Position numbers and translations under genes: made by a program. 43,883 nucleotides of DNA from Lachnospiraceae bacterium (lineage in GTDB: Bacteria; Bacillota; Clostridia; Lachnospirales; Lachnospiraceae), in NCBI GenBank assembly GCA_021202635.1, contig JAJQCQ010000040.1, forward strand, positions 1 through 43,883, read 5' to 3'. The number at the start of each line of letters is the position of its first letter. The first letter of the stretch is position 1. The notes under the pieces are model-generated. The model did not search any database, was not told where the DNA came from, and saw nothing but the letters and a program-made list of their open reading frames with translations. Positions 1-17,500 of the stretch are shown here, one piece after another.

Positions 1-2
1 TC

Positions 3-2649: not shown

Positions 2650-2790
2650 ATGATGAGAAAGCACAGAAAGAGAAGCGAAAGATATTACCAAATCCTTGAA
2701 CGGATATTTGATACACTGCTTTGGATTATCGCTTTTTTGCAAGGCCTGGATGCTTTATGCTTGTTTGGGAATTATGTTATCAGGTGGTAA
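2650..2790 (+). CDS. Small membrane protein, 46 aa, unrecognised
   Basis: A short ORF starts at ATG 2650 behind a good ribosome site (GGAGAAAGGCGGAGC). It has a strongly basic N-terminus (MMRKHRKRSERYY) and a hydrophobic, Trp/Leu-rich stretch of about 20 residues, which fits a single-pass small membrane protein. It lies between the sortase gene and the next hypothetical gene, in an AT-rich gap. I do not recognise a family. A random ORF is possible, but the ribosome site and the basic-plus-hydrophobic layout favour a real gene. Confidence 0.4.
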   Translation: MMRKHRKRSERYYQILERIFDTLLWIIAFLQGLDALCLFGNYVIRW

Positions 2791-2853
2791 AACATATTGT
2801 TCAGAAAGGTATGATCTGAACGTATAGTAAACGGCACAGAAAGCGGGCAATGT

Positions 2854-3411: not shown

Positions 3412-3436
3412 TTGGTCTTGATAAAACCTGGTGTGG

Positions 3437-3476
3437 CGGACAGAGCGAAAAGAAGCTTTTGTCCGTCTTTTTTTAT
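3437..3476 (+). terminator. Rho-independent terminator
   Basis: A stem of CGGACAGAGC against GCTTTTGTCCG (one bulged base) is followed by TCTTTTTTT. It closes the unit ending at 3411. Confidence 0.75.
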
Positions 3477-3588
3477 TTATATAGTAAGGTGAAGGTGTAT
3501 GATTTGATTGGATATGCAAAAAGGTATAAGGAAAGATAGCGCGGATGAAGCAAATGAACAGAAAAGCGTAAGGCAAACAACAGAGAAA

Positions 3589-3801
3589 CAATATATAGAA
3601 GAAAATCAGTTGACGTCAACAAAATCTTGCGTTACTATACCCTCGAAAGCTGATTTGATTCATCCCAAACGGATGGATGAGGGGATTTTATCCCGGCGGT
3701 TCTGGCCGGGAGAGAAATTTGGAAATCGTTTTGTGTTTCATGAAAAGTAAAGAGAGATTTCGGTAAAGCATTCAGGAAGGTGGTTTCTGAGTGCTTTTTT
3801 C
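3589..3801 (+). promoter_or_regulatory. Leader element copy 1: promoter, two hairpins and attenuator before ssb
   Basis: CAATATATAG lies at 3589-3598, a -35 TTGACG at 3610-3615 and, after 17 bp, a -10 TACTAT at 3633-3638. The expected transcript has hairpin P1 (TTCATCC near 3659, closed by GGATGGA at 3671-3677, with CGG at the loop edge), a conserved GATTTTAT, hairpin P2 (3691-3711, TCCCGGC paired with GCCGGGA) and a terminator at 3765-3801 (11-bp stem AAAGCATTCAG/CTGAGTGCTTT, then T6). The ssb start is 122 nt after the terminator, so ssb expression should need read-through. Copies 2 and 3 have the same order, spacing and box sequences. Confidence 0.75.
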
Positions 3802-3922
3802 TTTGCCCAAAATCAGGGAACACGGGAAAATCAGGAAGGAAGGCTGCAGGCATTTACAGGCTTTCAGAAAATTTGGTTATGGGATATAGCCGTTGTTCAG
3901 ACAGGAAAAGGAGGAGACACAG

Positions 3923-4555
3923 ATGAATAAGGTGATCTTAATGGGACGTCTGGTGGACGACCCGGAAATTTATGATTCAGCCGATGGAGATGCGATAGGC
4001 CTGGCAAAATTCCGCCTGGCTGTGGACCGCAGGTTTAAAAAGAGGAATGATGATGTGACGGCGGATTTTTTCAACTGCGTGGCGTTTGGACGCTGCGCGG
4101 AATTTACCGACCAGTACCTTCGCAAAGCAGTCAAAATTGTCCTTGTCGGCAGGATTGAGAACTACAGCTACACCAACAACGATGGGAAAAAGGTCTATGG
4201 GACCCAGATTATTGCGGAGGAGTTTGACTTTGCTGAGAGTAAGGCCGCCTCGCAGAGCAGCCAGGGAAACCAGGATGACCCAGGTTACCGCGCCCCGGAC
4301 ACTGGCAGCGGACGTCAGCAGCTCAGACAGTCTGCCGGAAAGACAGCGTCTGCAGACGGTGCTTCCGCGTCGCGGAGGTCTTCTGCCGGGGCAAGCCGGA
4401 AGGGCAGTGTGCAGGCGGATGCTTCAAATGGTAACGGAAGTGGACGGAACAGGCGGCAGGGCAGCGGACGCCGGTCAGCAGCGAATGAGAACCGGACGCC
4501 GATTGATGACCGTTTCGATGATGTGGATGAGCTGGATGAACTGCCGTTCCAGTAA
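3923..4555 (+). CDS. ssb: Single-stranded DNA-binding protein (element-encoded)
   Basis: It coats single-stranded DNA during replication, repair or conjugal transfer of the element. Residues 1 to about 105 are the OB fold, starting MNKVILMGRL and including FFNCVAFG and KIVLVGRIENYSY. A long disordered Ser/Gly/Arg/Gln tail follows, and the protein ends DELDELPF-Q, the acidic tip that recruits partner enzymes. At 210 aa it is longer than many chromosomal SSBs because of the tail. ATG 3923 is chosen because AAAAGGAGGA precedes it and the OB fold starts there; an upstream in-frame ATG at 3893 adds ten unsupported residues. It is the first gene behind leader copy 1 and is followed by the genes at 4609 and 5304. 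Confidence 0.92.
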   Translation: MNKVILMGRLVDDPEIYDSADGDAIGLAKFRLAVDRRFKKRNDDVTADFFNCVAFGRCAEFTDQYLRKAVKIVLVGRIENYSYTNNDGKKVYGTQIIAEEFDFAESKAASQSSQGNQDDPGYRAPDTGSGRQQLRQSAGKTASADGASASRRSSAGASRKGSVQADASNGNGSGRNRRQGSGRRSAANENRTPIDDRFDDVDELDELPFQ

Positions 4556-4608
4556 GCACGGTATGGCTGGGGCAGCACTGTACCAGCCAGGCGTAAGAAA
4601 AGGAGAAC

Positions 4609-5307
4609 ATGATGGATGATGTAAAAAAATGGGTCAGGAATAACAGGAAAATTTTTGTGGCGTCGGTACTGGCTGGATTCATACTGACGCCTCTTTTATG
4701 GCCATTTTTTCTGGGGATTATTTACAATACGCTGTCCCTGGCCGGGCCGGTGTTCCTTATCCTTGCCGGCCTGAAGATGCCGTGGGCTGCTTTTCAGGCG
4801 CAGCGGCAGGAGACAGGCGGCGCAGGAGATGCAGGAACCAAGCAGAACGGACGGGAAGCAGATATGGATATAGAGACGGCTGATAACAATAACAGGAAAG
4901 GAGCGGGAGACTTTGAACAGGAAGAGACAGCAGGGCAGACAACCCGCCGTGCGGATGGGGCGGAAGCGGATGTGTCAGGACATCCGGAAAGCACATCCGG
5001 CGGCGAAAGGGGCCGGGAGAAGGCGGACACATTCTGGAATGAGGATGGGGAAGGCCGCATAATCGGGCTTCTTGGAAAGGCTTTGAAAGAAGGCGGCTAT
5101 GGCATCTCAGTTACGCCCGACGGGATGTGTTACAAGATTACGCCGGATGGCACGGCGCGGATTGGCGCGCTTAAGGGTTATCCGGGCAGCCATGCGGCAG
5201 TCGTGGAGCGGCTGAAAACGGCGGGCTATGCCATAAAATGCAGCGTGAAAGGGAAATACCTCCATATCTTCCCCGGTCGGGGAAAGCATGCGGGGGTGTC
5301 TCTATGA
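4609..5307 (+). CDS. Hypothetical two-pass membrane protein, 232 aa
   Basis: Two hydrophobic segments lie at about residues 14-36 and 39-58, joined by a short turn. Then comes a Gln/Glu/Asp/Gly-rich disordered region (residues 65-145). A small C-terminal domain follows (about 150-225; GLLGKALKEGGYGISVTPDG, then TARIGALKGYPG). ATG 4609 (or the next codon, 4612) follows AAAGGAGA. The stop overlaps the start of the helicase gene (ATGA at 5304-5307), so the two are translationally coupled. I do not recognise the family. Being between ssb and a helicase suggests a part in element DNA processing at the membrane, but that is inference. Confidence 0.7.
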   Translation: MMDDVKKWVRNNRKIFVASVLAGFILTPLLWPFFLGIIYNTLSLAGPVFLILAGLKMPWAAFQAQRQETGGAGDAGTKQNGREADMDIETADNNNRKGAGDFEQEETAGQTTRRADGAEADVSGHPESTSGGERGREKADTFWNEDGEGRIIGLLGKALKEGGYGISVTPDGMCYKITPDGTARIGALKGYPGSHAAVVERLKTAGYAIKCSVKGKYLHIFPGRGKHAGVSL

Positions 5308-7529
5308 GCAGGATTGAATGCACACCGACCGGCAGGATTTATTACAATGCGGAGAACGGCTACACGGTGGCTGCTTTCCTGACGGAGGAGGAACTTCCGG
5401 AGAAAGTAAGGAGATCCGGGGATATGCCCGGCTCCCTCAAAGCGGTCGGCGAGGAACTCCCGGGCGAGGCCGGCATCACGCTGGAACTGGAAGGGGTCTG
5501 GAAAAATACCGGTTATGGGATGCAGTTTGCCGTGAAAAGCTTCCAGGTCAAACTGCCGACCACATCTGAGGGCATCTGTAAATACCTGTCCTCCGGCCTG
5601 ATCAAAGGGATTGGCCCGGTGACGGCCGGGCGGATCGTGGAGCGGTTTGGGGAAGACACGTTCCGGGTTTTTGAAGAGGAGCCGGAACGCCTGCTTGAAG
5701 TCCGCGGCATCACACAGACGAAGCTTTCGGAGATGGCAGATGGTTATAAGAAAAGCATAGCGGTGCGGGAACTGATGGTTTACCTGGCGCCGATGGGGGC
5801 GACGCCGAGGATGGTGTCGCTTATCCAGGAACGTTTTGGCAGCGCAGCGGTGGGCATCGTGAAAACAGACCCTTACCGCCTTTGCGAGGTGAAAGGGTTC
5901 GGCTTTCTGACGGTTGACCCGATTGCGGTGAAAAGCCGGGATTTCCGGGCGGACGACCCGGGGCGTATCCGGGCGGCCATCCGTTACGTGTTAAGCGAGG
6001 CAGAAGGGGAAGGCCATCTGTTTCTGTATGCCACGGAGATTGTGGAGCGGGTCAGCCTCCTGCTGAACCACAAAAACCGCTATGGGACTGTCACGGACAA
6101 GGCAATTAAGGACGCCGGAAATGAGATGGTGTATCAGGACAGGGAGCTGGTTGCAGGCGGCGGGAGCAGTGTCTATGCCAAAAAGGCGTATGAGGCTGAG
6201 GCAGAGGCGGCGCGCCACCTGGCGCGACTTGCCCGCTTCCAGCCGAAGCCGGTAGAGATTGAACCTTATCTGAAACGGGCGGAGAAAAAGACGGGGATTG
6301 TGCCGGATGAGAAACAGCGGGAAGCCGTCCGCATGGTTTTCCGGAATGGCGTCAGTATCATTACCGGAGGCCCCGGCCGCGGGAAGACGACGGTCATTAA
6401 GCTGATCATTGAAGTGCAGGAGGCAATCTGCCATGATGCGTTGATCCTCCTCTGTGCACCGACCGGGAGGGCACGCCGGAAAATGTTTGAAAGTACGGGC
6501 TACCCGGCACTGACAATCCATAAAGCCCTGAACCTGACCGGTGAGGCGGGGGAGGAAGCGTGGAATGAAAGAGGGATGCTCTCCGACGACCTGGTCGTGG
6601 CGGATGAATCCAGTATGCTTGACATGCACCTGGCCTGCCAGCTGTTCCGTTCGGTCAAAGCAGGGGCACGCCTGGTACTGGTAGGCGACCAGGACCAGAT
6701 CCAGTCCGTGGGGCCGGGAGCTGTCTTCCGGGAGCTGATTGCGTCCGGAGTGATCCCGGTGGTTACGCTGGATACCTGTTTCCGCCAGGGGGAACACTCG
6801 ACAATCAGCGGAAATGCGGACCGGATCAACCAGGGCGATACGCATTTAAAGCAGGATGATTCCTTCCGTATTTATACGGTGACGGATGATGAGGCTGCTG
6901 CGGAAAAGATCAGTGAGGTATATAGGGCGGAATGGGCTGCGCACGGGAAGAACGCGGATGAAATCCAGGTTCTGTCGCCTTTAAAAAAAGACACGCTTGC
7001 CGGGGCGGACGCGCTGAACCAGGTTTTGCGGGAGATCGTCAACCCGGTATCACCAGGGAAACAGCAGGTGAAGCACGGCGGAAGAATTTTCCAGGTGGGC
7101 GATAAGGTGATGCAGCTGCAAAATGCGGACGACGTCGCCAACGGTGACACGGGGACGGTGACGCGGATCACGCGCGATGGCGGGAAGTACAGCATGGAAG
7201 TGGATTTTGGCGACGGGCGCAGGATTGCCTATAAACCGGACGACAGCTGGCCGCTGACACACGCCTATGCGATGACCGTCCACAAAGCGCAGGGCTCGGA
7301 GTACGACACAGTCATCCTGCCGATGCTGCCCTGTTTCCGCCGGATGCTCCGGAGGAATATTTTCTACACCGCCGTCACGCGGGCAAAGAAAAAAGTGATA
7401 CTCATCGGCAGCCGGAAAGCTATCTATATGGCAATCAAAATCAACGACACCCAGAAAAGGAATACAATGCTTAGCTATAGAGTGCGCGATGCGTTCCAGA
7501 AAATGGAAAAATACCGCGATGCGGCGTAA
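5304..7529 (+). CDS. recD2: RecD2-type ATP-dependent DNA helicase (SF1B)
   Basis: A 5'-3' DNA helicase of the RecD2/TraA-helicase type, 741 aa. The N-terminal region has helix-hairpin-helix motifs (GIGPVTAGRIVERFG and VRGITQTKLSEMA). Walker A is GGPGRGKT at residues 355-362, followed by the DESSMLD Walker B segment, LVGDQDQIQSVGPG (motif III), and near the C-terminus YAMTVHKAQGSEYDTV and FYTAVTRAKKKV (motifs V/VI). The Walker A has Arg where GTGKT is usual. ATG 5304 is chosen because it overlaps the previous stop and the conserved N-terminus begins there; a longer frame from 5238 runs through the preceding gene. It sits with ssb behind leader copy 1 and probably serves element replication or transfer. 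Confidence 0.9.
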   Translation: MSRIECTPTGRIYYNAENGYTVAAFLTEEELPEKVRRSGDMPGSLKAVGEELPGEAGITLELEGVWKNTGYGMQFAVKSFQVKLPTTSEGICKYLSSGLIKGIGPVTAGRIVERFGEDTFRVFEEEPERLLEVRGITQTKLSEMADGYKKSIAVRELMVYLAPMGATPRMVSLIQERFGSAAVGIVKTDPYRLCEVKGFGFLTVDPIAVKSRDFRADDPGRIRAAIRYVLSEAEGEGHLFLYATEIVERVSLLLNHKNRYGTVTDKAIKDAGNEMVYQDRELVAGGGSSVYAKKAYEAEAEAARHLARLARFQPKPVEIEPYLKRAEKKTGIVPDEKQREAVRMVFRNGVSIITGGPGRGKTTVIKLIIEVQEAICHDALILLCAPTGRARRKMFESTGYPALTIHKALNLTGEAGEEAWNERGMLSDDLVVADESSMLDMHLACQLFRSVKAGARLVLVGDQDQIQSVGPGAVFRELIASGVIPVVTLDTCFRQGEHSTISGNADRINQGDTHLKQDDSFRIYTVTDDEAAAEKISEVYRAEWAAHGKNADEIQVLSPLKKDTLAGADALNQVLREIVNPVSPGKQQVKHGGRIFQVGDKVMQLQNADDVANGDTGTVTRITRDGGKYSMEVDFGDGRRIAYKPDDSWPLTHAYAMTVHKAQGSEYDTVILPMLPCFRRMLRRNIFYTAVTRAKKKVILIGSRKAIYMAIKINDTQKRNTMLSYRVRDAFQKMEKYRDAA

Positions 7530-7591
7530 GACGGTTAGCAGAGAAGGATGTGGGCCAGGACTGGCCTGGAACAAAGGAAAAGGAGAAAAAG

Positions 7592-7687
7592 ATGTTTACG
7601 ATTATTTCAAAGAAAAAATATGACCGGGAGAAGAGACGTCTGGAACTGAGCCAGATGGTGCTGAAGGATAAGGAAAAGGCACTGTAA
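7592..7687 (+). pseudogene. N-terminal piece of an interrupted coiled-coil protein
   Basis: ATG 7592 follows a good ribosome site (AAAGGAGAAAAAG) and encodes 31 charged, helical residues (MFTIISKKKYDREKRRLELS) before a TAA at 7685. The same frame continues open after the TAA straight into the ORF at 7766 with further coiled-coil sequence (EEAASRLFLETENLELKRQL). This looks like one gene (7592-8080) split by a single stop codon. Confidence 0.6.
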
Positions 7688-7765
7688 GAGGAAGCGGCAT
7701 CACGGCTGTTCCTTGAGACAGAGAACCTGGAACTGAAACGGCAGCTTTCCGAGCAGGAGCGGCGT

Positions 7766-8080
7766 ATGGACTGCCTGGAGGACCGGGTGCGCGCGGAACT
7801 CTGGCAGAAGATACATGCGATCCTGACGGAGCCGGGAAAAGATGGGAAAAAGTATCCGGAGCGCTGCGGCTGCTACCGGAACCCGGATACAGGGAACTGG
7901 GAAGTGGTGCTCGGCTGCAGCTTTTATGACGGGGAAGATGCAGAGCGGGTGGTATTTACAAATCAGAAGGACGCGCACCTTTATTATTCGCTGCTCCGTG
8001 CATTTGAGCAGTACCCCTGGACCCCGGCCGGCTCAGATGATTTTTGGGATGGTGCGCCGGAACTGGAGGATGCGGCATGA
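7766..8080 (+). CDS. Hypothetical protein, C-terminal part of an interrupted gene, 104 aa
   Basis: The product starts with the tail of a coiled coil (MDCLEDRVRAELWQKIHAIL), then a compact domain with a CGCYRNPDTGNWEVVLGCSFYDG core and an acidic C-terminus. It is in frame with the piece at 7592 after one TAA. However, AGGAG at 7755-7759 lies six bases before ATG 7766, so it could also be made alone by internal initiation. Its stop overlaps the start of the next gene (ATGA, 8077-8080). The family is not recognised. It belongs to the unit led by ssb. Confidence 0.6.
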   Translation: MDCLEDRVRAELWQKIHAILTEPGKDGKKYPERCGCYRNPDTGNWEVVLGCSFYDGEDAERVVFTNQKDAHLYYSLLRAFEQYPWTPAGSDDFWDGAPELEDAA

Positions 8081-8388
8081 AGAAAGCAATATCGCCTGAG
8101 ACGGCAGATGCCTTTACTGACAGCATGAATATGAGCGCTTTCTTTGAAAAAGCTGCAGGAGAATTTTGCCTTCCGGTAAGCAGAGATACCATATTTGACT
8201 GCCGGAAGATCACAGTTGCGTCGGATATCATAAGGCGCTGGTACGGCACAGTGGAGCATAAGCACGGCAAAGCGTACCTTGCGGAACTGACGCGCTATCT
8301 GCTGCTGTGCGGGCCAAAAGAAAACAAAGAACTGAAAGACGGGGAGATAGAGATTACCAAGGGATTTTTGGTAAATCCAGTGAAATAG
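8077..8388 (+). CDS. Hypothetical protein, 103 aa
   Basis: A small soluble protein, MKKAISPETADAFTDSMNMS onward, probably mainly helical, with no membrane segment and no recognised motif. The start at 8077 overlaps the previous stop by ATGA, which indicates translational coupling; a longer frame from 8044 lies inside the upstream gene. A terminator and a block of strong hairpins (8403-8603) come directly after it, so it may end the ssb-led transcription unit. Confidence 0.6.
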   Translation: MKKAISPETADAFTDSMNMSAFFEKAAGEFCLPVSRDTIFDCRKITVASDIIRRWYGTVEHKHGKAYLAELTRYLLLCGPKENKELKDGEIEITKGFLVNPVK

Positions 8389-8421
8389 GTTTGCAGCGTA
8401 TGGCCACGGAATCTGCGTGGC

Positions 8422-8466
8422 GGGCTCTGGAGTATGTTCCTACAGGACATCTTCAGAGCCTTTTTA
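8422..8466 (+). terminator. Rho-independent terminator
   Basis: GGCTCTG (8423-8429) pairs with CAGAGCC (8454-8460), with further inner pairing, and TTTTT follows. A 6-bp hairpin GCCACG/CGTGGC (8403-8421) lies just ahead of it. Confidence 0.7.
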
Positions 8467-8603
8467 TCCAATAGGAAAGTTTTTCGAACTTCCCTGTTGG
8501 ATAAAAACCCTCCGGGGGATGCACATGCCGCGCTAGAGGGAACTGTCTGCTTACGCAGACGCGCGGCAGCGCGAGAATCCCGCAAAACGGGATTCTATTT
8601 TAA
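8461..8603 (+). other. Multi-hairpin noncoding block
   Basis: Three strong structures follow each other in 143 nt. The first is an inverted repeat at 8461-8507 (TTTTTATCCAA with TTGGATAAAAA, inner AGGAAAGT with ACTTCCCT). The second is a nested stem at 8527-8567 (GCCGCGC/GCGCGGC around GTCTGC-TTAC-GCAGAC). The third is a perfect 9-bp hairpin at 8574-8596 (AGAATCCCG/CGGGATTCT). A ribosome site for the gene at 8624 follows. No coding potential is seen. It may be a 5' leader, a processed RNA or a DNA-level element. Confidence 0.55.
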
Positions 8604-8623
8604 AGAAAGGAGAAGTCAAACTT

Positions 8624-8821
8624 ATGAGTGGAACAGATGGGATGACCTGCAATAAATGCCTGTGCCGGTTAAATTCCTGGGACCGCCGCCTCTCAAAGAC
8701 GCTTGCTTACCGGTATCCGCTTTGCGAGAAGTGTATCGCAGATGAATACGGTATGGAAGTGGATTTCCTGCGGGCGAGGATGGAGACGTATTTTGGTATG
8801 CGCCCCTGCCTTGGAATATGA
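8624..8821 (+). CDS. Small zinc-ribbon-like protein, 65 aa
   Basis: Cys9/Cys12 and Cys34/Cys37 form a CxxC-x21-CxxC pattern typical of small zinc knuckles; Cys14 is also near. The start is well supported by AAAGAAAGGAGAAG upstream. It precedes another cysteine-rich protein at 8838 with only 16 nt between, so they are likely co-transcribed. The metal-binding role follows from the cysteine spacing. The biological role is unknown. Confidence 0.65.
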   Translation: MSGTDGMTCNKCLCRLNSWDRRLSKTLAYRYPLCEKCIADEYGMEVDFLRARMETYFGMRPCLGI

Positions 8822-8837
8822 GAGAAAGGAAGAAAAA

Positions 8838-9989
8838 ATGGCGGAATACAATCGGCTGACAAGCGATCTGCTTGCGAAAGGGTTTGATGAGACGCGCTAT
8901 CCTTCTTATGTAAAAATCGCAGGCGGAAGCTTTGGGGTACATCCGCTGGACAATGGTTACGGCGGGTTTGAATACAAACGCGATTTTATATGGAAGCAGG
9001 CGTTTTGCACCGGCTGCGGGCTGTCCGTAAAAGGCCAGAACTGCATCACGGGTTTATTTTACATGGGTGAGAACTGGTGTTATGAAAACAACAATCCTGT
9101 GATCCTCTGTCCTTACCAGAATGGGCACTGCCTGAGAAACGACGGGCGGCTGTGGACGGATAAGGATGCTGACGGGACCTTGTTTTTCTGCGTCTGCCAC
9201 AGGGCAGAGACCTATGACTATAAAAACAGCCTGGAAAAGGTAAGGAAAGAAGCAGAGACAGAGAAACAGAAGAAATACGAAGTATTCAAAGAACAGCATG
9301 GCGGGAAAATCTGCCGCGTGCATATGGCTTATTCTGGGAAAAAACGCGAATGGAAACTGTGTTATGATCCTGTAAGATGCGCCAGGGAATGTTACTCCGA
9401 TTTCTGCCCGATTCGGGGCAGGATGCTTTCCGGTAAAAAAGGAAATGTATTTTATGACTTGAAAATCTCCACTATCCGGAAAGACGATACGTTTTTCAAT
9501 GGTGAACCGGTTGTGCGGATTGAAAAAGGGAAGCGTTTTCTGGATAAACCGGTGTCCCTGGATATCTGCACTGCCATAGCGGCCACGGGAAGCAGGGAGA
9601 TTTACCGGAAAGAATGGTGGAACCGCTACTCCATGCAGCATATGACAGATCCGGATTTGCAGATAGAGATATTAAACCTGCGTGCAGAATCCAGGGAGAG
9701 CCGGGACCTGATGCAGGATCTGGAAGATATCCGGAACGGCATCACAGTCGTGCATGCGTCCGACCAGAAAAAGGCGGCAATGCAGAATAAAAAAGAGCGG
9801 CGGCAGCAGAGAAAACAGAAAAAGATTCAGTCGTTGGAGAACAGGATCCGGAAACAGGGATTTGACAGCTTGTCCGATATGGAACGGGTATATGCCGGAA
9901 AACTGCTGGGTGAGGAACGGGTGAACGAGCTGAAAGCGGAACAGAGAGACGCACCACGTCAGCTTTCGCTGTTTGCAGATGCAGGATAG
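8838..9989 (+). CDS. Cysteine-rich hypothetical protein with basic coiled-coil C-terminus, 383 aa
   Basis: The N-terminal half has several paired cysteines (from Cys57 in CTGCGLSVKGQNC, then CYENNNPVILCPYQNGHC and FFCVCHR), which suggests one or two zinc sites. A middle region repeats the pattern (CYDPVRCARECYSDFCPIRG). The end, from about residue 310, is a Lys/Arg/Gln-rich coiled coil (MQNKKERRQQRKQKKIQ) and finishes RQLSLFADAG, a QLSLF-type motif resembling clamp- or partner-binding tails. Start ATG 8838 follows AGAAAGGAAGAA; a longer frame from 8703 overlaps the preceding gene and is not credible. The family is not recognised. It is likely an element-specific nucleic-acid-associated protein, by inference. 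Confidence 0.7.
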   Translation: MAEYNRLTSDLLAKGFDETRYPSYVKIAGGSFGVHPLDNGYGGFEYKRDFIWKQAFCTGCGLSVKGQNCITGLFYMGENWCYENNNPVILCPYQNGHCLRNDGRLWTDKDADGTLFFCVCHRAETYDYKNSLEKVRKEAETEKQKKYEVFKEQHGGKICRVHMAYSGKKREWKLCYDPVRCARECYSDFCPIRGRMLSGKKGNVFYDLKISTIRKDDTFFNGEPVVRIEKGKRFLDKPVSLDICTAIAATGSREIYRKEWWNRYSMQHMTDPDLQIEILNLRAESRESRDLMQDLEDIRNGITVVHASDQKKAAMQNKKERRQQRKQKKIQSLENRIRKQGFDSLSDMERVYAGKLLGEERVNELKAEQRDAPRQLSLFADAG

Positions 9990-10053
9990 TATCTGCTTCC
10001 ATATGAATTAGATGTGATGGGAGAAAAATTTCCCGATAAAGAATAAAAAACAC

Positions 10054-10090
10054 TTGGCGGACAACTGATTCAACGGTATAATGGAATCAG
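10054..10090 (+). promoter_or_regulatory. Promoter with inverted-repeat operator for the gene at 10115
   Basis: A -35 TTGGCG (10054-10059), a 17-bp spacer and a -10 TATAAT (10077-10082). A perfect 7-bp inverted repeat CTGATTC/GAATCAG (10065-10071 and 10084-10090) brackets the -10, which is the arrangement expected for autoregulation. Confidence 0.6.
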
Positions 10091-10114
10091 GTCTTCACAA
10101 GGAGGTGCCAGAAA

Positions 10115-10381
10115 ATGACATATACGGATGTGAAAATATCAGTACCCAGGGAAATGAAAACATATGTAACTTATTACAACAAGGATATGGAATTGGAAAG
10201 GAACGCACTCCTTTTATATCCTTATATAAAGAATCTGACGATCTCACACGGAAAAGCAGCAGAGATCCTGGGAATCTATAAGACGGATCTGATTGATCTT
10301 TATGAAAAAATCGGTCTGCCATATCTTGACCTGGATATGAAAGAAGTAGAAGAGGAAGTTTCAAACTATCAAAAATTATAA
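10115..10381 (+). CDS. UPF0175-like antitoxin/DNA-binding protein, 88 aa
   Basis: The central part, ISHGKAAEILGIYKTDLIDLYEKIGLPYLDLD, matches the helix-turn-helix and tail of UPF0175 proteins, which often act as antitoxins or small regulators beside PIN-domain toxins. The N-terminal ten residues look like a beta strand (TYTDVKISVP). A strong ribosome site (AAGGAGGTGCC) precedes ATG 10115. An overlapping frame starting at 10081 is a shadow. It has its own promoter with a bracketing inverted repeat. No PIN or other toxin gene is adjacent: the next feature is leader copy 2, so it may be an orphan transcription factor of the element. Confidence 0.65.
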   Translation: MTYTDVKISVPREMKTYVTYYNKDMELERNALLLYPYIKNLTISHGKAAEILGIYKTDLIDLYEKIGLPYLDLDMKEVEEEVSNYQKL

Positions 10382-10403
10382 GGAGCAGCGGTGCGACAAA
10401 ACA

Positions 10404-10613
10404 CAATATATAGAATAAAATAGATTGACCAATACAGGAAATTGTGCTACGATACCAGATGAAAGCTATTTTTATTCATTCGGTATGAATGGATTGTCAG
10501 ATTTTATTCCGGCGGCATGGCCGGAAGTGTTTTTTTTAACCGTAGGTTTTCTATAAAACAGGATGAAGTTGTGCGAAAAGCGTTCAGAAAGAATATTTCT
10601 GGATGCTTTTTTT
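10404..10613 (+). promoter_or_regulatory. Leader element copy 2: promoter, two hairpins and attenuator
   Basis: CAATATATAG at 10404-10413, -35 TTGACC at 10425-10430, 17-bp spacer, -10 TACGAT at 10448-10453. P1 is ATTCAT/ATGAAT (10474-10490, CGG in the loop). GATTTTAT follows, then P2 at 10507-10526 (TTCCGGC/GCCGGAA). A T8 run comes right after P2 in this copy only. The terminator is at 10576-10613, a 15-bp stem AAAAGCGTTCAGAAA/TTTCTGGATGCTTTT with two wobble pairs, then a T tract. It precedes the operon that begins at 10690/10756 and runs to 16908. Confidence 0.75.
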
Positions 10614-10755
10614 CGTGATACAGCCAAAAGTGTGTGGCTGTGGCCTGGATTACAGGAATACAGCAGGTAATCCGCAAAGGAAGGAGGGTATGATCATAGC
10701 TTTCAGGATTAATAGCAGTAATCAGAGAAAATCAGAAAAGAAGGAGAATTGGATT

Positions 10756-11085
10756 ATGAGCATGATGGACAGTATTTTTGACGGCAGGTTATATCCGGGG
10801 GAGCAGATTCTTTCAAAGGAACCGGAATATACAAATGCGAACCAGGAAGTGGACAGGATTATGGTGGAGCTGGAAACGAAGCTTGAAAAGGCAGAGTACG
10901 ACCTTGTGGATAAGGCGATGGACTGCCTCTCTGCAGCGCAGGATGTGCAGAATAAGGAGTTTTTCCGGTGCGGTTTCGCAACCGGGCTCCTGCTGATGAA
11001 GGAGGCAGGGGAATGCAGTTCTGTATCGGATGCATTACTCCAGGAATGCCGGGCAAAGGTGGAGAAGTATTATGGAACGGATTGA
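10756..11085 (+). CDS. Small hypothetical protein, possibly DUF6809-like, 109 aa
   Basis: The protein opens MSMMDSIFDGRLYPGEQILS and continues as a helical domain (VELETKLEKAEYDLVDKAMDCL, then FATGLLLMKEA). The 'D/NGxxYPxEQI' opening resembles small Firmicutes proteins grouped as DUF6809; I recall this family only approximately. Two starts have ribosome sites: ATG 10756 (AGAAGGAGAATTGG) and ATG 10690 (AAGGAAGGAGGGT), the latter adding 22 residues. I chose 10756 because the family-like sequence starts there. It is the first gene behind leader copy 2. Function unknown. Confidence 0.6.
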   Translation: MSMMDSIFDGRLYPGEQILSKEPEYTNANQEVDRIMVELETKLEKAEYDLVDKAMDCLSAAQDVQNKEFFRCGFATGLLLMKEAGECSSVSDALLQECRAKVEKYYGTD

Positions 11086-11135
11086 CAGGAAAGAATTTGT
11101 GTAAGCCGTAAGGCTTACGGAACAATCAGAACAGC

Positions 11136-11175
11136 GGACAGGCAGGGTACAAAGACAGGCGTACCCTGCCTGTTC
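11136..11175 (+). other. Strong intercistronic hairpin before the AAA+ ATPase gene
   Basis: GACAGGCAGGGTAC (from 11137) pairs with GTACCCTGCCTGTTC (11161-11175) almost perfectly over a 10-nt loop, without a U tract, 24 nt before the ATG at 11200. A smaller hairpin GTAAGCC-GTAA-GGCTTAC lies at 11101-11118. They could set transcript stability or translation of the ATPase rather than terminate. Confidence 0.55.
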
Positions 11176-11199
11176 CCGTTTAGAAGGGAGGACAGGAAG

Positions 11200-13008
11200 A
11201 TGGGATGGGATTCACATCTTTTTGAGACGTGGCAGCTGAATACGCAGTTGCCGCCGCGTTTTGAGCAGGTTTTTTCAGGGGAACGAAAGGCGTTTTACTC
11301 GACGAAACCGGAGGACTGTTCTGCGTATAACAGCAGAAAAACCGGGAAAATGGCGACGCTGTACCCGCACGTGCTGCGTGCACTGGAGGCTTTGGTCCGT
11401 GGGGAGTCAGGCGAAGGTGATGTCGCAGCCGGGGTACAGGTTGGTGCAGATGGACGGCTCTGTTATTACTGTATGGAATATACGAAGCCGGGGAACCACA
11501 AAGAGCTGCTGGTATATAAGCCGACGACAGGGACGTTCCTGGCGGGGCTTCTGGTTGGACCGGAGAAAACCGGCAGGGTTCCTATGGTAAGGCAGGATGG
11601 CAACGACGGGGAGGAATTCATTGCCCTGCTCTCTTATGCGAGTCTGGTAAAAAACGGGCCTGCCTATGACAGGGAATTCTGCAGCGCCTATGACATCCTG
11701 AAAAAGGAATACCAGTCGGGCGCCCCAGATGCCGGGCAGATGATCCATGCTGCGTATCTTTGCTGTGACAACCTCAGGTGGCGGATTGAGGACCTGGATG
11801 TTTCGGAAGAAGGGGTGCTGCCTCTTGGACGCACGAAAGCGCAGGGGCTGGACGTGGAAATGCTGAGTTATCAGGCACTTTTCATGGGACTTTACGCACC
11901 GACTGAGACTACGGTCGGCCATTTTACGGTGTTTGAGCCCCAGGGGGAGAGCCAGGGATACGGGATTGAAGAATTGCGGAAGCTTTACGCAAAGGAATGG
12001 GAGTTCCCGGAAAACGTAAGGCAGCGGATCCCGCGGCTCCCGGATTCTTACCGGGTAAGCGCTTCTGCGGAGCGGATCCTGTGTGCGATTGAAAAGACTC
12101 CGGCCCGCGTTTTCATGATGACCGGGAGTGCCGGGGTCGGGAAGACAACGGATGCGCAGCTGATCGCGCAGGTGCGTGGCGTTCCCTACTATAAGTTTAC
12201 CTGTGGGCCGAATACGGATGAGATTGAGCTGATCGCTTCCATGGTGCCAAACACGGAAACGCATACGGAAAATGTGCCGGATGTCCCGGATTATGAAGAC
12301 CTTCAGATGGACCCTGCGACGGCACTGATGAAGGTATGCGGGGAGTACCAGGATGGGATCAGTGAGAAGGAGGCGTTCCGGATAATAACGGAACTTTTGT
12401 TCCAGAAAGGATATCAGGCAGCGAAAGCAGAGCGGGATTTCCGCATGGTGGAGTCACCAATCATAGAGGGGTGCAAAGTCCCGTCCGTGGTTGAGATTCA
12501 GGAGCCCCTGCTGATCGAACGCCCGGCGACGCTGGCAAAATTTAACGCTTTGCTGGATGAATGCGCTTCGATTGAGCTTTTAAACGGCGAGGTAGTCCGC
12601 CGGCATCCGGATACAGTTATCATCCTGACGACGAACATGGATTATATTGGCTGCCGCCAGATGAATGAGTCCGTTTTGTCGCGCATCCGTTTTGTTGACC
12701 ACAGGCCGGACCTGACTGAGAAGGAAATGGTGCAGCGGGCTATGCGGAAAACCGGGATGGCCGACTGTGAAATCCTCCAGAAGATGGCACAGGCAGTTGT
12801 GAAAATCCGCCGCTATCTGAAAGAAGAGGAGCTGCGCGGCGGTGTCTGTGAATACCGGGAATACGAGGACTGGGTCTGGGCGTACCTTTCCGGCGGGAAC
12901 CTTTTGAAGGCGGCGGAGCATACGGTTATCGCAAAAGCTTCCATGGACGCGGAGGAGCGGCAGGAGATGATGACACTCTTCATCCGGCCGGTTTTTGAGG
13001 AACTTTAG
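11200..13008 (+). CDS. MoxR/CbbQ-type AAA+ ATPase, 602 aa
   Basis: A AAA+ chaperone-like ATPase. The first ~295 residues are an element-specific N-terminal region. Walker A is GSAGVGKTT (residues 309-317). The Walker B position reads VVEIQEP, followed by a long helix and LNGEVVRRHPDTVIILTTN (sensor 1) and NESVLSRIRFVDHRP (arginine finger region), the CbbQ-like arrangement. Such ATPases work in pairs with a VWA-domain protein to insert metals or remodel protein complexes. The next gene, 35 nt downstream, encodes exactly such a VWA protein. The start follows AAGGGAGGACAGG. The AAA+ call is firm; the client is unknown. Confidence 0.88.
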   Translation: MGWDSHLFETWQLNTQLPPRFEQVFSGERKAFYSTKPEDCSAYNSRKTGKMATLYPHVLRALEALVRGESGEGDVAAGVQVGADGRLCYYCMEYTKPGNHKELLVYKPTTGTFLAGLLVGPEKTGRVPMVRQDGNDGEEFIALLSYASLVKNGPAYDREFCSAYDILKKEYQSGAPDAGQMIHAAYLCCDNLRWRIEDLDVSEEGVLPLGRTKAQGLDVEMLSYQALFMGLYAPTETTVGHFTVFEPQGESQGYGIEELRKLYAKEWEFPENVRQRIPRLPDSYRVSASAERILCAIEKTPARVFMMTGSAGVGKTTDAQLIAQVRGVPYYKFTCGPNTDEIELIASMVPNTETHTENVPDVPDYEDLQMDPATALMKVCGEYQDGISEKEAFRIITELLFQKGYQAAKAERDFRMVESPIIEGCKVPSVVEIQEPLLIERPATLAKFNALLDECASIELLNGEVVRRHPDTVIILTTNMDYIGCRQMNESVLSRIRFVDHRPDLTEKEMVQRAMRKTGMADCEILQKMAQAVVKIRRYLKEEELRGGVCEYREYEDWVWAYLSGGNLLKAAEHTVIAKASMDAEERQEMMTLFIRPVFEEL

Positions 13009-13043
13009 ATGCCGGATGGCAGGGAAAAGAGGCAGGGAAAGGA

Positions 13044-15521
13044 ATGAAAAAGGAGCAGAAAGAAATCCGGAAAAGGATCCGGGAAATGAAAGGACGGATG
13101 ACGCCGGAGCAGGTATTTTTATCTCCCCGTTACCAGGAGCTGGTCAGGAAACTCACGAGGGAGATTACGGATGGGAAATTTTCGAATGTCTCCATCCGGT
13201 GCCTGGGCGGTGATACGCCTGCCGGGACATATGACGGGGAGCGGATTGTGGTAAACCTGGACTACGAGCTGCTCCGGAGTTATGCCAGCAAAGAAATGAT
13301 GAACCTGGGGATTATCGGCATAGTCGGGCATGAGTGCGGCCATAAGAATTACTCCGATATTTATTTAAGGGGGAAATACCTGCAGGGCATCCGGATGGAG
13401 CATAAGCTTTATCCGCATGCGCCTGTCCCCCGGACCGGCGCAGATAAAAAAGCGCTTCAGGACATAAAGGAATGTTTTCAGGACGGGGATACGGTTGTTA
13501 TTTCGTATGTGCATCAAATTGCGGCTTTCCTTGGAAACCTGCTGGAAGACCGCTATATAGAAGAAAAAATGTGCCGGGACTATCCGGGCAGTATCCGCAG
13601 CGGTATCCGGATGAATCGGATGCGTATGCTTGACCTGTTCCCGAGCGTGAAGACGATGGAAGCAGATGGGCAGCCTATGGCCTGCATTATGCTCAATGTA
13701 ATTGCACAATACCTGTTTGCAGAAAAATATAATGCCTGGGACGGCGTGGCCGCCTGTTATGTGGAATGCCTGGAAGCATGCAGGCCGCTGCTTGGAGCCG
13801 CAGTGTTGAAAGACGGGGAGAGCGTCAGGTATGAATTGACCAACCAGATTCTGCTAAAGCTGTGGCAGTTTATCCGGGCGGACACCGATAAAATCAGGGA
13901 AGAAATCGCAGGAAATGAGAAAGAGCATGAGAGGGGGAGTGATGGGAATCCAGAGAAATTGAACTCTTCTATGGAAAACTCAGATTCTGTGAATGCCCCG
14001 GCTCCTTTCAATGAATTGAATTCTGCAGATGAAGCAGATTCTTCAAATGAAAGGGAACCAGAAAGTGGGGCTGGCTCATCTGGGTTTCAGGAACAGGGGA
14101 AATTGTCCGAGAAGCAGGACGAGGATGTTATGCCTGATGAAGAAAGTCAGAAGCCAGGTGCTCTAAATCAAAAATTATCTAAAAAAGATTTTTCAGAAGC
14201 GGCGGAGCAGGCAGCAGAAAAACGGATGCAGTGCCTGCCATCATATTCGCATGAACCGGAAGCGGCGCCAGATAATGGCTATCCAGATGTATCTGAGGTA
14301 ACAGCGGGTGATGCGGACTGGGATGGGTGCTGGAATGATGGTGATGGACAGAACAATAGTGAAGATACGGAAAGCAGAAATGGAGATGCTGATGATTTAG
14401 AAAACACGGAGTTTGATAATGATGGGTCTGCTGCCGGAAAGTCGGATATCTCGAATGGTCTGGAATCTATGTCGCAGGAAAATGCTGGTTTGCAAGCCGG
14501 TTTCGCAGATGATTATACTCAGAATCCGGACGATGTTACGGGTACAACAGCATCAATCCCACCGCAGTCCGACGCCAGCCTGCTGTCTTTTTTGTCGGAT
14601 GTGGCGAAAGAACTGGTGGAACAGGAGGACGAAGAAAGGCTGCACCAGAAGCTTTCAGAGGTTCTGAAGCGGACGGATTTTGGAAGCAGCCATGAATCCG
14701 TGAGGAAGGCGATTTTCCGTAACGCAGAGGTTAGTGATGAGGCGGTGCAGCGGTATCTGGAGGCTCAGAAGGAAGTGCGGAAGATCCGGAGAAAACTGGA
14801 GACGGATCTGCTTCCTTATCTGGAAAAGCGGCGTGACCATGCGGAGAACGGGCTGCTGCTTGGCAGGCGGATGGATATCCATTCCCTTTACCGGCCAGAT
14901 CAGAAGGCATTTGAAAAGAAAATCCGTCCGGGGTGTGAGAATGACACCGTAGTTGCCCTATTGCTGGATCTGTCAGCTTCCATGAAATCTGGAAACAGGA
15001 TTGCGCAGGCGCGTTTCGCGGCGCTTTGCCTGTACGAATTCTGCCAGGAAGCGGATATCCCGGTCACTGTTTACGGGCATTATACCGGCCGCATATCGGA
15101 TCAGGACAGTGCTATTTCTTCAGAAGAGGTTGTGTGTCTGGAATCCATGGCGGAGTTTGACTTTACAGACGGGAAGGACGGGTTACGCATTATGGATGCG
15201 TCCCCGAAAGGGGCAAACCGGGATGGCGCGGCGATCCGTTTTATGGGTAGGATGCTCCTGGAGCGCCCGGAAAGGAAGAAAATCCTTGCGCTGGTGAGTG
15301 ACGGGCTTCCGAACGCGGAGAACTATTCCGGGGAGTCAGCCAGGAAAGATTTGATGGAAATCAAAGAAAAGTTGACAGCAGAAGGGATTACCTTCCTGGC
15401 GGCCGCAATTGCAGATGACCGTGAGGCGATCCGCGGGATTTACGGGGATGCGTATGTCGATATCAGCGATATCCGGAAGCTTCCGCAAAAGCTGATGAAA
15501 CAGATCATTAAAATACTATGA
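13044..15521 (+). CDS. VWA-domain protein with N-terminal zincin motif, 825 aa
   Basis: This is the partner of the preceding MoxR-type ATPase. Residues 96-100 are HECGH in a IIGIVGHECGHKN helix, an HExxH zinc-peptidase signature, with a possible third ligand in LLEDRYIEEK. Residues ~290-510 are a disordered, very acidic linker rich in Asp, Glu, Ser and Asn. The C-terminal VWA domain has the MIDAS motif DLSASMKSG (from about residue 640), then GRISDQDS and ALVSDGLPNAENYSG. It resembles CobT-type VWA proteins. MoxR-VWA pairs usually activate metal enzymes, but the HExxH raises the option of a peptidase. The stop overlaps the next unit's first ATG (15518). Confidence 0.85.
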   Translation: MKKEQKEIRKRIREMKGRMTPEQVFLSPRYQELVRKLTREITDGKFSNVSIRCLGGDTPAGTYDGERIVVNLDYELLRSYASKEMMNLGIIGIVGHECGHKNYSDIYLRGKYLQGIRMEHKLYPHAPVPRTGADKKALQDIKECFQDGDTVVISYVHQIAAFLGNLLEDRYIEEKMCRDYPGSIRSGIRMNRMRMLDLFPSVKTMEADGQPMACIMLNVIAQYLFAEKYNAWDGVAACYVECLEACRPLLGAAVLKDGESVRYELTNQILLKLWQFIRADTDKIREEIAGNEKEHERGSDGNPEKLNSSMENSDSVNAPAPFNELNSADEADSSNEREPESGAGSSGFQEQGKLSEKQDEDVMPDEESQKPGALNQKLSKKDFSEAAEQAAEKRMQCLPSYSHEPEAAPDNGYPDVSEVTAGDADWDGCWNDGDGQNNSEDTESRNGDADDLENTEFDNDGSAAGKSDISNGLESMSQENAGLQAGFADDYTQNPDDVTGTTASIPPQSDASLLSFLSDVAKELVEQEDEERLHQKLSEVLKRTDFGSSHESVRKAIFRNAEVSDEAVQRYLEAQKEVRKIRRKLETDLLPYLEKRRDHAENGLLLGRRMDIHSLYRPDQKAFEKKIRPGCENDTVVALLLDLSASMKSGNRIAQARFAALCLYEFCQEADIPVTVYGHYTGRISDQDSAISSEEVVCLESMAEFDFTDGKDGLRIMDASPKGANRDGAAIRFMGRMLLERPERKKILALVSDGLPNAENYSGESARKDLMEIKEKLTAEGITFLAAAIADDREAIRGIYGDAYVDISDIRKLPQKLMKQIIKIL

Positions 15522-15535
15522 TGGGAGAGGATCAA

Positions 15536-16450
15536 ATGGCGAATATACCAAAGGCTTCAAAACAGATCTGTGTCTATAAAACCGATAAGGGCCTGCTGGA
15601 AATGAACAATAAGCTGCTCCCGGCACCGAACGGGACACCCTGGCATATCCATGCGGAAGGAAAGGAGGAAGGGTATTCCCTGATTCAGATGGTTGCGCTG
15701 GATTACAGCCGGGGAAAAGGTGAAAAATCGGTCAGTGTGTACGCCAATGTAAAGCCGGAGGATATCAAATTTCTGTTCATGAAGCTCTGCTTTGGGTTTG
15801 AGTCAGTGAAATATTCTGAACAGAAGATTTTTAAGGACGGGGATGGCGGATTTGTGACATCGCTGCAGATTGAGCGCGCGGAGTATAACGAAAAAGGCGA
15901 CAGGATGCGCCTGCCCTGGAGTGTCCGGATTGGGAATGGTTCCGGCACGGTTGCCTATAACCGCAACGGCGGGCAGTATTACGAAAGGGATTCCTATGAT
16001 GAGAAGCGGGTGGTGAAAGTGCACCTGGATGACCGTTCTTTTTTCCGGCTCTTAAGCCGTACCTGCGCTGTGATTGATGCATTCGAGCAGAAACAGCTCT
16101 ACCGCGAGAAGGACGTCCAGAATTTCCAGACCTTGTTCAATCTCATCTGTGGGAGACTGGAAGCGTATTTTGGCGGCGGACTGAAAAGCGGCGGGCTGCA
16201 AAACAGGCAAGCGATAAGCGGTTACGGCGGACTCTCCCGTAAGAATGGGATTGGTGCGGACAATGGTACGTCAGAGAAAAAACGTATCAGCGGTTATGCG
16301 AATCAGTTCCAGGACGATGGGGATGAGGATTACGGAACCGCGTTTTATGATGACGACCATGAAAGCGATAATGAGAGAGATTATGATGGTCCATTTCATG
16401 AGGATGGCTGCGACAGTGACGACATGGATGTCTTTGAGGATGCGGCATAG
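15536..16450 (+). CDS. Hypothetical protein following the MoxR/VWA pair, 304 aa
   Basis: A soluble protein with a well-packed N-terminal region (SKQICVYKTDKGLLEMNNKL, then VSVYANVKPEDIKFLFMKLC) and a low-complexity C-terminus rich in Asp, Gly, Arg and Tyr, ending in DDMDVFEDAA. No family is recognised. ATG 15536 is chosen because GGGAGAGG lies just upstream; ATG 15518 overlaps the stop of the VWA gene and would add six residues. Its position directly behind the ATPase/VWA genes suggests it is a substrate or accessory of that complex, by inference only. Confidence 0.65.
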   Translation: MANIPKASKQICVYKTDKGLLEMNNKLLPAPNGTPWHIHAEGKEEGYSLIQMVALDYSRGKGEKSVSVYANVKPEDIKFLFMKLCFGFESVKYSEQKIFKDGDGGFVTSLQIERAEYNEKGDRMRLPWSVRIGNGSGTVAYNRNGGQYYERDSYDEKRVVKVHLDDRSFFRLLSRTCAVIDAFEQKQLYREKDVQNFQTLFNLICGRLEAYFGGGLKSGGLQNRQAISGYGGLSRKNGIGADNGTSEKKRISGYANQFQDDGDEDYGTAFYDDDHESDNERDYDGPFHEDGCDSDDMDVFEDAA

Positions 16451-16464
16451 CTGGAGGAAAACCT

Positions 16465-16908
16465 ATGCGTAATATAAGAAAAAAAGAACAGGAAGAACTG
16501 CTGAAAGAAACGGAAAAAGATTTTCTTGTTTTCCAAACAGGCTTTGTGATTGAGCTTGGCCGGGGAGAATATTTCCGGTGCATCAGGAATGGCAGTATAA
16601 GCTGCGGCACCCTGCCATATGCGAGACGATTCCAGAGCCAGGGTGAAGCGGAACGGTATGTATTTTTGAAACTGCATTATTATGGCCTGGAAGCGCATAT
16701 CTGCCGGACAGCCTGGTATCTTGGCTCTTGGGATGAAGCCGGGAAAGGCTGGGATGGGAGCAGGTTTACAGATGAAATAGAAAAGGCAGTTTTATTCGAA
16801 AGCATCAGAGAAGCAGAAAAATATCAGAAAAGCAGGCATCTGGAAATGGAATCGTATATAGAAGGGACAGCAGTACGGATGCAGTGCGTGGCAGTGAGAA
16901 CAGCGTAA
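16465..16908 (+). CDS. Hypothetical protein, 147 aa
   Basis: A charged N-terminal helix (MRNIRKKEQEELLKETEK) is followed by a small alpha/beta domain with aromatic residues (GRGEYFRCIRNGS, AERYVFLKLHYYGLEAHICR). There is no membrane segment and no known motif. GGAGG lies six bases before ATG 16465. It lies 14 nt after the previous gene and is the last gene before leader copy 3, so it should end the unit driven by copy 2. Function not inferable. Confidence 0.6.
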   Translation: MRNIRKKEQEELLKETEKDFLVFQTGFVIELGRGEYFRCIRNGSISCGTLPYARRFQSQGEAERYVFLKLHYYGLEAHICRTAWYLGSWDEAGKGWDGSRFTDEIEKAVLFESIREAEKYQKSRHLEMESYIEGTAVRMQCVAVRTA

Positions 16909-16953
16909 AAAAATCGGGCAAAAGGCGGCCCTGGCAATGGGAATGATAAAATA

Positions 16954-17189
16954 CAATATATAGTGGAAAAAGATTGACGAAAACACTATATTATGCTAAA
17001 CTGGACACGATTTAAGGTTTTGCCTGAACGGTCTGAAACATTTGGGCATAAGAGTTTTATTCCGGCGGATGGCCGGGAGGACAAATTTGGGCATGACCTG
17101 GAAATTTCCCTGTTAGCAGTTTAATTTTTGTGTATGGAAGTGCCGCGCAAGGCACCAGAATTCAGCGATGGATTTTGGTGCCTTTTTTT
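16954..17189 (+). promoter_or_regulatory. Leader element copy 3: promoter, two hairpins and attenuator with possible antiterminator
   Basis: CAATATATAG at 16954-16963, -35 TTGACG at 16974-16979, 17-bp spacer, -10 TAAACT at 16997-17002. P1 is TGCCTGAA/TTTGGGCA (17021-17048, CGG in the loop), then GTTTTAT, then P2 at 17060-17078 (TTCCGGC/GCCGGGA). The terminator is at 17149-17189 (AAGGCACCA/TGGTGCCTT plus T7). GTGCC at 17140-17144 can instead pair with GGCAC at 17151-17155, which would break the terminator stem, a classic attenuation switch. The DUF5688 gene at 17501 is the first clear gene downstream. Confidence 0.75.
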
Positions 17190-17500
17190 CGTTGCCCGGA
17201 TTTTTATTATCCGGGATTTGTTGCCAGTGGCACAGGGAGAATGAAACTCTGTGGTGCAAAGGGAATGGAACTGTGGTACAGGCTGGTATCCGCAGCAGCA
17301 GTTCAGGGCGGACTGCTGCTATGGAGAATATTTTTCAAGTATATTTATGAAGAAAGAATGTGTTGGAGATGGGTTAAAAGCGGATGGAGCAGTCGGCTTT
17401 TATATGCAGCGGTTTGGAGAAAAGCGCTGCGCAATGATTTACAGGTAAACTGAAATAAAGACAAAAAAGAAAAAGAAAAAAGAACAGGAGAGAAAGACAA
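17190..17500 (+). other. Leader-to-gene gap without a convincing gene
   Basis: Between the attenuator and the DUF5688 gene lie overlapping short frames. One from ATG 17267 encodes about 62 residues rich in Trp, Arg and Leu (MELWYRLVSAAAVQGGLLLW onward), but there is no ribosome site, and an alternative frame is equally open. An A/G-rich stretch at 17458-17500 contains the ribosome site (ACAGGAGAGAAAG) for the next gene. I see no certain feature. Confidence 0.4.

Follow-up and report, generated by a model that had tools for sequence, protein, structure and literature searches.

What lets several operons of one mobile element share a single kind of control unit is the question raised by contig JAJQCQ010000040.1 of a Lachnospiraceae bacterium, whose positions 1-43,883 (the window) were analyzed together with its own genome (GCA_021202635.1, hereafter G000; 3.98 Mb, 106 contigs). 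An earlier sequence-only reading had described three repeated promoter–leader–terminator units at 3589, 10404, and 16954, and had proposed that an element-specific activator site and an RNA attenuator control the operons behind them. All three units are present as described, and the order and spacing of their elements were verified by reading the three stretches. The motif CAATATATAG lies 11, 11, and 10 bp from TTGAC in copies 1, 2, and 3, the spacer between the -35 and -10 elements is 17 bp in every copy, the second stem follows the -10 at ~52, 53, and 57 nt, and GATTTTAT or GTTTTAT stands directly 5' of that stem. We consider it probable, though well short of certain, that these units form a two-layer switch, in which repression by host NrdR, read from the DNA sequence, would be combined with an antitermination RNA that acts in cis, like put of HK022 or canT of Tn916; we infer the antitermination.

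In G000, CAATATATAG followed by the gap and TTGAC occurs at five sites, all five in the forward and none in the reverse orientation, and a reversed-pattern control gave none. By itself, CAATATATAG is not distinctive: the window holds 10 sites at ≤2 mismatches against 6.8 expected. Three of the five sites are the window copies, and the other two lie on contigs C93 and C61 (C numbers denote contigs of G000, G numbers genomes compared, and L numbers loci or contigs fetched). On C93, parts of which also occur in the window, the leader sequence is that of copy 1; the C61 copy heads an operon whose products include homologues of an ERF recombinase and of a protein judged primase-like by eye.

NrdR-like box pairs at the leader promoters

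Alignment of 50 leader promoters revealed a second site within the 17-bp spacer, ahead of an extended -10; the sequence-only reading had the promoter motif and spacing right but overlooked this box. One palindrome fits both sites, with the pooled symmetric consensus ACACAATATATTGTGT and A/T at positions 5 and 12. NrdR boxes are described with the consensus acaCwAtATaTwGtg, typically as two copies an integral number of helical turns apart (PMC4009431), and as 16-bp sites with a usual spacer of 15–16 bp and best binding at 15–17 bp (PMC12051234). With box 1 allowed to take any register in the 26 nt upstream, the box starts are 30–32 bp apart, that is, three helical turns, in 44 of the 50 leaders. 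A matrix trained on the leaders was then applied to 961,217 bp of element and flanking DNA, and gave 35 pair hits at 30–32 bp, in 34 places as one was counted in two registers, whereas five other distance windows gave 0, 0, 0, 1, and 2. Leaders account for 33 of the 35 hits; single boxes are not distinctive in the window or in Vescimonas. The other two hits are on L134 of genome G016, where a box pair (L134:9583) lies outside the leaders matched by the RNA model R1 described below, ~1.2 kb upstream, on the minus strand, of a 193-aa gene that precedes a ParM-like gene.

The same matrix was applied to host loci of nrdD, the ribonucleotide reductase (RNR) gene examined, and since it was trained on leaders only, this test is independent. 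Of 21 nrdD loci, drawn from 12 leader-bearing genomes, 15 have a box pair upstream and none has one inside or downstream (of 27 nrdD matches, L195–L200 were left out of the scan). In a separate scan, both nrdD loci of G000 had a pair as well. G000, the genome in which the NrdR gene was looked for, carries one (203.5 bits). The RNA model R1, run on 22 sources (the 21 nrdD loci and L134), returned ten low-scoring matches up to E 5, none of them convincing, the best being 25.5 bits at the L186 promoter. Because the nrdD loci gave no convincing R1 match, the boxes and the RNA look like separable modules.

NrdR represses transcription and binds DNA in its ATP- and dATP-loaded form. Together, the shared palindrome and its spacing strongly suggest that CAATATATAG and its copy in the spacer are a pair of NrdR boxes, the operator of the host repressor. 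Given this mode of action and the position of one box within the spacer, repression rather than activation is the natural reading, and the element-specific activator site proposed earlier is better described as a host repressor's operator; an unknown activator was dropped in favor of NrdR boxes after the promoter pattern had turned up in viral contigs. The leaders share with the NrdR regulon the consensus, the pairing of two 16-bp boxes (the second being weak in the window), the integral three-turn spacing, the overlap with the promoter, and like pairs at host nrdD; the NrdR gene itself is present in G000. They differ in heading conjugation, recombination, and other mobile-element operons rather than RNR genes, and the introduction of PMC12051234 states that NrdR appears RNR-specific. 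The boxes themselves were already known; no link between NrdR and conjugative elements was found in the titles and abstracts searched, mainly of the open-licence literature.

Leader RNAs, terminators, and the operons they head

Covariance model R1 was based on seven leaders (alignment A1), and 38 type 1 leaders, the class with two hairpins to which the window copies belong, were aligned to it (alignment A4); the C93 copy was left out of both. As A4 was fitted to the model, the alignment favors the model's pairing. In A4, 251 of 264 cells of hairpin 2 are paired and five of its seven pairs show changes on both sides; none of 500 shuffles reached this pairing and no slid version came close, which bears out the covariation claimed for the second hairpin from the three window copies. 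Hairpin 1 varies in sequence, strongly so between operons of one genome, and its segment is more stably folded than dinucleotide shuffles of it (mean z -1.77, n=38, 14 below -2). Some relatives, such as L024, have no CGG in its loop, which had been taken as constant, and the hairpin-1 loop motif was dropped as a family feature. By eye, A4 shows U-rich stretches ahead of both hairpins and no conserved UNCG loop.

The order-level search contributed 13 type 1 leaders to A4; of its other matches, 12 were judged by eye to be type 2 and excluded, and one lacked a locus. In type 2 leaders, a closing stem encloses between one and three hairpins and a junction is formed; they differ from type 1, which is a compact RNA of two stem-loops near the promoter. 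Their pairing holds in 91.0% of 199 cells in 20 sequences, with 40 double-change cells, and four of five covariation measures exceed all 500 shuffles. Of the type 2 alignments, A5 comprises six chosen leaders, and A6 excludes the three-hairpin forms (L070, L071, L082, L088/L104, L105, and L106) and repeats (L074, L076, L101, and L102); alignments A2 and A3 (the latter a MAFFT alignment of 24 leaders) had misaligned stems and were not used. Rfam 15 gave chance-level hits and no credible match, with the window searched at the gathering threshold and 7 loci plus 14 loci at an E-value threshold. The literature likewise gave relatives in kind but no match, which is weak evidence because the search covered open-licence papers only. 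Hence the earlier statement that no known family shows this pattern fails for the DNA part, given the NrdR boxes, and stands for the RNA part as far as searched.

Terminators were sought up to ~320 nt after the RNA, with L034 excluded as too short. Of 37 type 1 leaders, 33 have a terminator and eight have two, compared with one in the antisense direction and one in control stretches; for type 2 the figures are 18 of 25, with two terminators in six, compared with none and two. A competing-helix test, confined to type 1, took the 33 leaders of 38 for which a terminator had been called. Complementarity of the leader to the 5' arm of the terminator was not above shuffles (mean z +0.39, with only L026 below -2), and the terminator was kept in the predicted fold of all 33. 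Together these results argue against a competing-helix switch; the alternative stem pointed out in copy 3 is not a family feature, and the attenuator of that kind proposed earlier finds no competing helix in type 1. As a separate observation, a terminator-like hairpin lies within a PrgI-like reading frame at L049:19687-19726 and L059:10575-10614, identical in two genomes with differing flanks; coding constraint could also account for the identity.

A covariance search had been named beforehand as one half of the refuting test, and it returned further copies with compensatory changes. R1 found matches in 8 of the 47 genus genomes (E≤0.01) and in 15 of the 392 order genomes (E≤0.001), with G000 in both counts; the 15 all belong to one family, and several genomes have four or five matches. 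A second model, R2, matched 3 of 393 genomes of the class and 3 of 294 of the order at E≤0.001, and cross-matches some type 1 leaders. One genome, G293, has leaders of both classes, type 1 on two contigs and type 2 on another. Vescimonas fastidiosa (NZ_AP023417.1) has two leaders, one before ssb and one before a lambda-exonuclease/RecD-like pair (R1 E 4.5e-5 and 0.0014).

Operons were defined by gene calls and clustering over the fetched stretches, with Pfam or NCBIfam matches for some members. Operon A comprises ssb, an unknown gene, and recD2; operon B an ERF recombinase and a primase-like protein; operon C AAA-like and VWA proteins; operon D a PcfK-like protein and a protein that clusters with the annotated PcfJ of Vescimonas; and operon E secretion genes with VirB4- and VirD4-like proteins. 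G005 has all five, with one leader each, on two contigs. These copies support the idea of one unit shared by several operons. Of the first genes assigned earlier, ssb followed by recD2 and DUF5688 stand, and that of copy 2 is corrected to DUF6809, with the AAA-like and VWA genes after it. As found in the fetched stretches, the genes of operons A–E are conjugative-element genes. A scan of named genomes with one protein found four loci, all in Lachnospiraceae metagenome-assembled genomes. The gene before PcfJ is annotated in Vescimonas as an AcrIIA9-family Cas9 inhibitor (L091:28436-29284), and its counterpart in G005 (L048:14815-15636) matches PcfK. A P85-like Pfam match in the homologue search was taken as chance.

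A proposed two-layer switch and its alternatives

In the proposed switch, the first layer would be a promoter of the sigma-A type with one NrdR box on either side of its -35, the two boxes being three helical turns apart; host NrdR probably represses initiation when deoxynucleotides are high and releases the operons once the pool falls. As the second layer, the transcript would open with a structured RNA of type 1 or type 2, with one intrinsic terminator, or two, between it and the first gene. Most likely the RNA acts in cis on RNA polymerase, as HK022 put or Tn916 canT does, so that polymerases starting at the leader promoter would read through and stray complexes would stop. The resemblance to put and canT is drawn because a structured RNA stands at the transcript start, terminators are sometimes in tandem, and no competing helix was found in type 1. 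The box pairs with their spacing and their occurrence at host nrdD, the conserved RNA structures, the terminator-like sites, and the recurrence of the unit at several operons of one class of element are observed; NrdR occupancy, read-through, and processivity are steps that we infer, and a protein may assist. The elements would thus probably take their cue from the nucleotide supply of the cell and need a folded RNA to pass the stop.

The put RNA of HK022 is described as ~70 nt long, folding into two stem-loops and working without a dedicated protein factor (PMC9378689). Type 1 leaders resemble it in having two stem-loops right after the promoter, repeated at separate operons upstream of terminators (PMC9378689), and the window copies would be ~67–70 nt if transcription starts ~7 nt after the -10. 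They differ in belonging to another bacterial phylum and in having a second, junction-shaped class, and the likeness is drawn from the published description of put, an RNA that also has a triplex and a zinc-domain contact. canT of Tn916 is described as most likely a cis-acting processive RNA (PMC11658703). With canT and conAn of pLS20, the leaders would share antitermination in the service of transfer operons of Gram-positive conjugative elements (PMC11658703, PMC8955417); in contrast, canT activity was shown for a 452-nt sequence and conAn includes a protein part, ConAn1, whereas here short leaders with NrdR boxes stand at several operons.

Several results weigh against this reading. In the operator, 4 of the 50 leaders have no recognizable box 1 and 2 have another spacing, and the 50 include three near-identical pairs and L046, which passes despite a poor match. 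Box 2 is weak in the window copies, that of copy 2 retaining 7 of 10 core positions by eye, and R1 and R2 include the promoter, which biases them towards box-bearing leaders. Six of the 21 nrdD loci have no pair, two of them with little upstream sequence, and a strict box pattern found none at the G000 nrdD loci, where the weighted matrix was needed. In the RNA, the hairpin 1 copies of the window are individually no better than shuffles (z -0.69, -0.15, and -0.66), and for the fifth type 2 measure, pairs with double changes, 44 of 500 shuffles did as well as the alignment. Internal operon terminators, which processivity would predict, are only modestly enriched, at 13 sense and 3 antisense in ~119 kb (the antisense scan also took in the first 450 nt of each span), and some of these terminator-like sites may be operon ends; simple scans showed no clear excess over shuffles (11 against 15.1 in L049, 23 against 18.9 in window 1-20000).

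The hairpins might instead be read by a protein. An RNA-binding protein encoded by the element or the host could mediate antitermination of the nut/N kind, which we regard as unlikely but worth keeping in view. Two candidate readers and the U-rich stretches ahead of both hairpins speak for it: an S1-domain protein of the secretion operon (the G005 member matches PF00575), whose family occurs in 8 of 10 element sets, that of Vescimonas among them, and a cold-shock-domain (CSD) protein (PF00313 in G005) encoded just before the operon B leader, a position that its family holds in 5 of 5 loci. However, the divergence of hairpin 1 between operons of the same genome argues against a common reader, the S1 family was not found in the G060 and G293b sets and the CSD family was found in 6 of 10 sets, all of them partial, and the linkage of both candidates is shared element membership, nothing more. 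LoaP, a chromosomal NusG paralogue, would be another reader, and a distinctly improbable one. G000 encodes LoaP (NF033641, 170.4 bits), within the genus LoaP scores above the cut-off in five of the eight leader genomes compared with 11 of the 39 others, a further point against the put- and canT-like RNA, and the leaders share with LoaP/dfn leaders the order promoter, hairpin, terminator (PMC12691694). On the other hand, the known LoaP hairpin is of the UNCG type, which inspection of A4 by eye did not show. The only NusG-family match in G016, a genome with five leaders, scores at housekeeping level, and neither G005 nor G015 reaches the LoaP cut-off, the three genomes being 95–97% complete. Because five leaders stand in G016 with no LoaP-level match, and G005 and G015 are likewise without one, LoaP was set aside as the general hairpin reader.

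Three further explanations were considered. A structured RNA followed by a terminator, and a competing stem that can be drawn in copy 3, would suit a riboswitch or classical attenuator, in which binding of a ligand or protein would decide between an antiterminator and a terminator fold; given the result of the competing-helix test, the tandem terminators after 8 of 37 type 1 leaders, and the negative Rfam search, we hold this very improbable, and a base-pair-exchange mechanism was rejected as no competing helix was found in type 1. It is also improbable that the terminators only insulate the operons, leakily, and that the hairpins only stabilize mRNA: an insulating terminator is known in Tn916 (PMC11658703), but terminators here would block the operon's own promoter too, because they lie downstream of it. 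For the operator, a factor encoded by the element might mimic the specificity of NrdR. The elements do carry uncharacterized genes, such as that of the 193-aa protein in 3 of 47 genus genomes, all three leader-bearing; yet the boxes match those at the nrdD loci of the same genomes in sequence and spacing, and the NrdR gene is present in G000, so we give this explanation little credence. The 193-aa protein itself was discarded as an operator-binding factor, being confined to those three genomes, absent from G000, and with weak PHROG matches only.

Returning to host NrdR and a cis-acting RNA, we see an even chance that clostridial conjugative elements of a widespread class have come into the host NrdR regulon and combined this control with a new, two-class family of cis antitermination RNAs, so that the dATP/ATP ratio would switch transfer, recombination, and other operons together. 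If so, mobile elements would sense the DNA-precursor state of the host, and the trigger of large gut integrative and conjugative elements would become a testable question. NrdR would gain a role beyond ribonucleotide reductase, and in the leaders Clostridia would have a compact antitermination RNA whose many natural variants lend themselves to structure–function work.

Feature positions and related promoters elsewhere

Table 1. Positions of leader elements and associated genes in the window
Feature	Positions	Strand	Basis and remarks
Copy 1 NrdR-like box 1	3586..3601	+	Pair score 27.4; 31 bp to box 2
Copy 1 NrdR-like box 2, in -35/-10 spacer	3617..3632	+	Matrix scan, promoter alignment
Copy 1 promoter, TTGACG-17-TACTAT	3610..3638	+	Sequence reading, promoter alignment
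Copy 1 RNA hairpin 1	3658..3678	+	Fold; alone z -0.69, no better than shuffles
Copy 1 RNA hairpin 2, TCCCGGC/GCCGGGA	3691..3711	+	Covariation
Copy 1 putative intrinsic terminator, -16.6 kcal/mol, then U tract	3765..3797	+	Terminator scan
ssb, first gene of operon A	3923..4555	+	PF00436
recD2 of operon A	5238..7529	+	TIGR01448
Copy 2 NrdR-like box 1	10401..10416	+	Pair score 27.7; 31 bp
Copy 2 NrdR-like box 2, degenerate core	10432..10447	+	Matrix scan
Copy 2 promoter, extended -10	10425..10453	+	Promoter alignment
Copy 2 RNA hairpin 1	10474..10494	+	Fold; z -0.15 alone
Copy 2 RNA hairpin 2	10507..10526	+	Covariation
Copy 2 putative intrinsic terminator	10578..10608	+	Terminator scan
Operon C, AAA-like and VWA proteins	11200..15521	+	AAA-like via homologue on L048; window protein itself without Pfam match
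Copy 3 NrdR-like box 1	16951..16966	+	Pair score 28.5
Copy 3 NrdR-like box 2, 30 bp	16981..16996	+	32-bp register at 16983 scores almost equal
Copy 3 promoter	16974..17002	+	Promoter alignment
Copy 3 RNA hairpin 1, weakest of three	17021..17048	+	Segment fold, z -0.66; longer fold differs
Copy 3 RNA hairpin 2, with G-U pair	17060..17078	+	Fold, covariation
Copy 3 putative intrinsic terminator, -23.3 kcal/mol	17149..17184	+	Terminator scan
DUF5688 gene of operon D	17501..18502	+	PF18941

Beside operon A, window positions 33-2322 hold a Cna_B-repeat surface protein and a class B-like sortase, and pilin and sortase genes are carried by the Vescimonas element too. Positions 19130-21072 are 84% identical to C61; their genes, ABC-transporter-like by eye, have relatives on several leader contigs. 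On C93 (L017), ~4516-6218 is a remnant of operon A, with pieces 95–99.8% identical to the window and most of recD2 unmatched.

The NrdR-like promoter pattern is also present in 33 viral contigs of IMG/VR, L156 and L157 among them, and the full box pair in 12 of the 33, some being repeats of one sequence; some phages thus appear to have NrdR-box promoters as well. In L142, L161, and L164, the next gene encodes an SPP1-type portal protein and the short leader contains a terminator-like hairpin; the scan found no box pair in L164. In L151 and L139, the pattern, without a full pair, precedes a helix-turn-helix regulator gene (Pfam on L151 only). Two contigs classed as viral, L149 and L166, have a type 2 leader (81.7 and 82.0 bits), and L166 runs on into a YqaJ-type recombinase gene.

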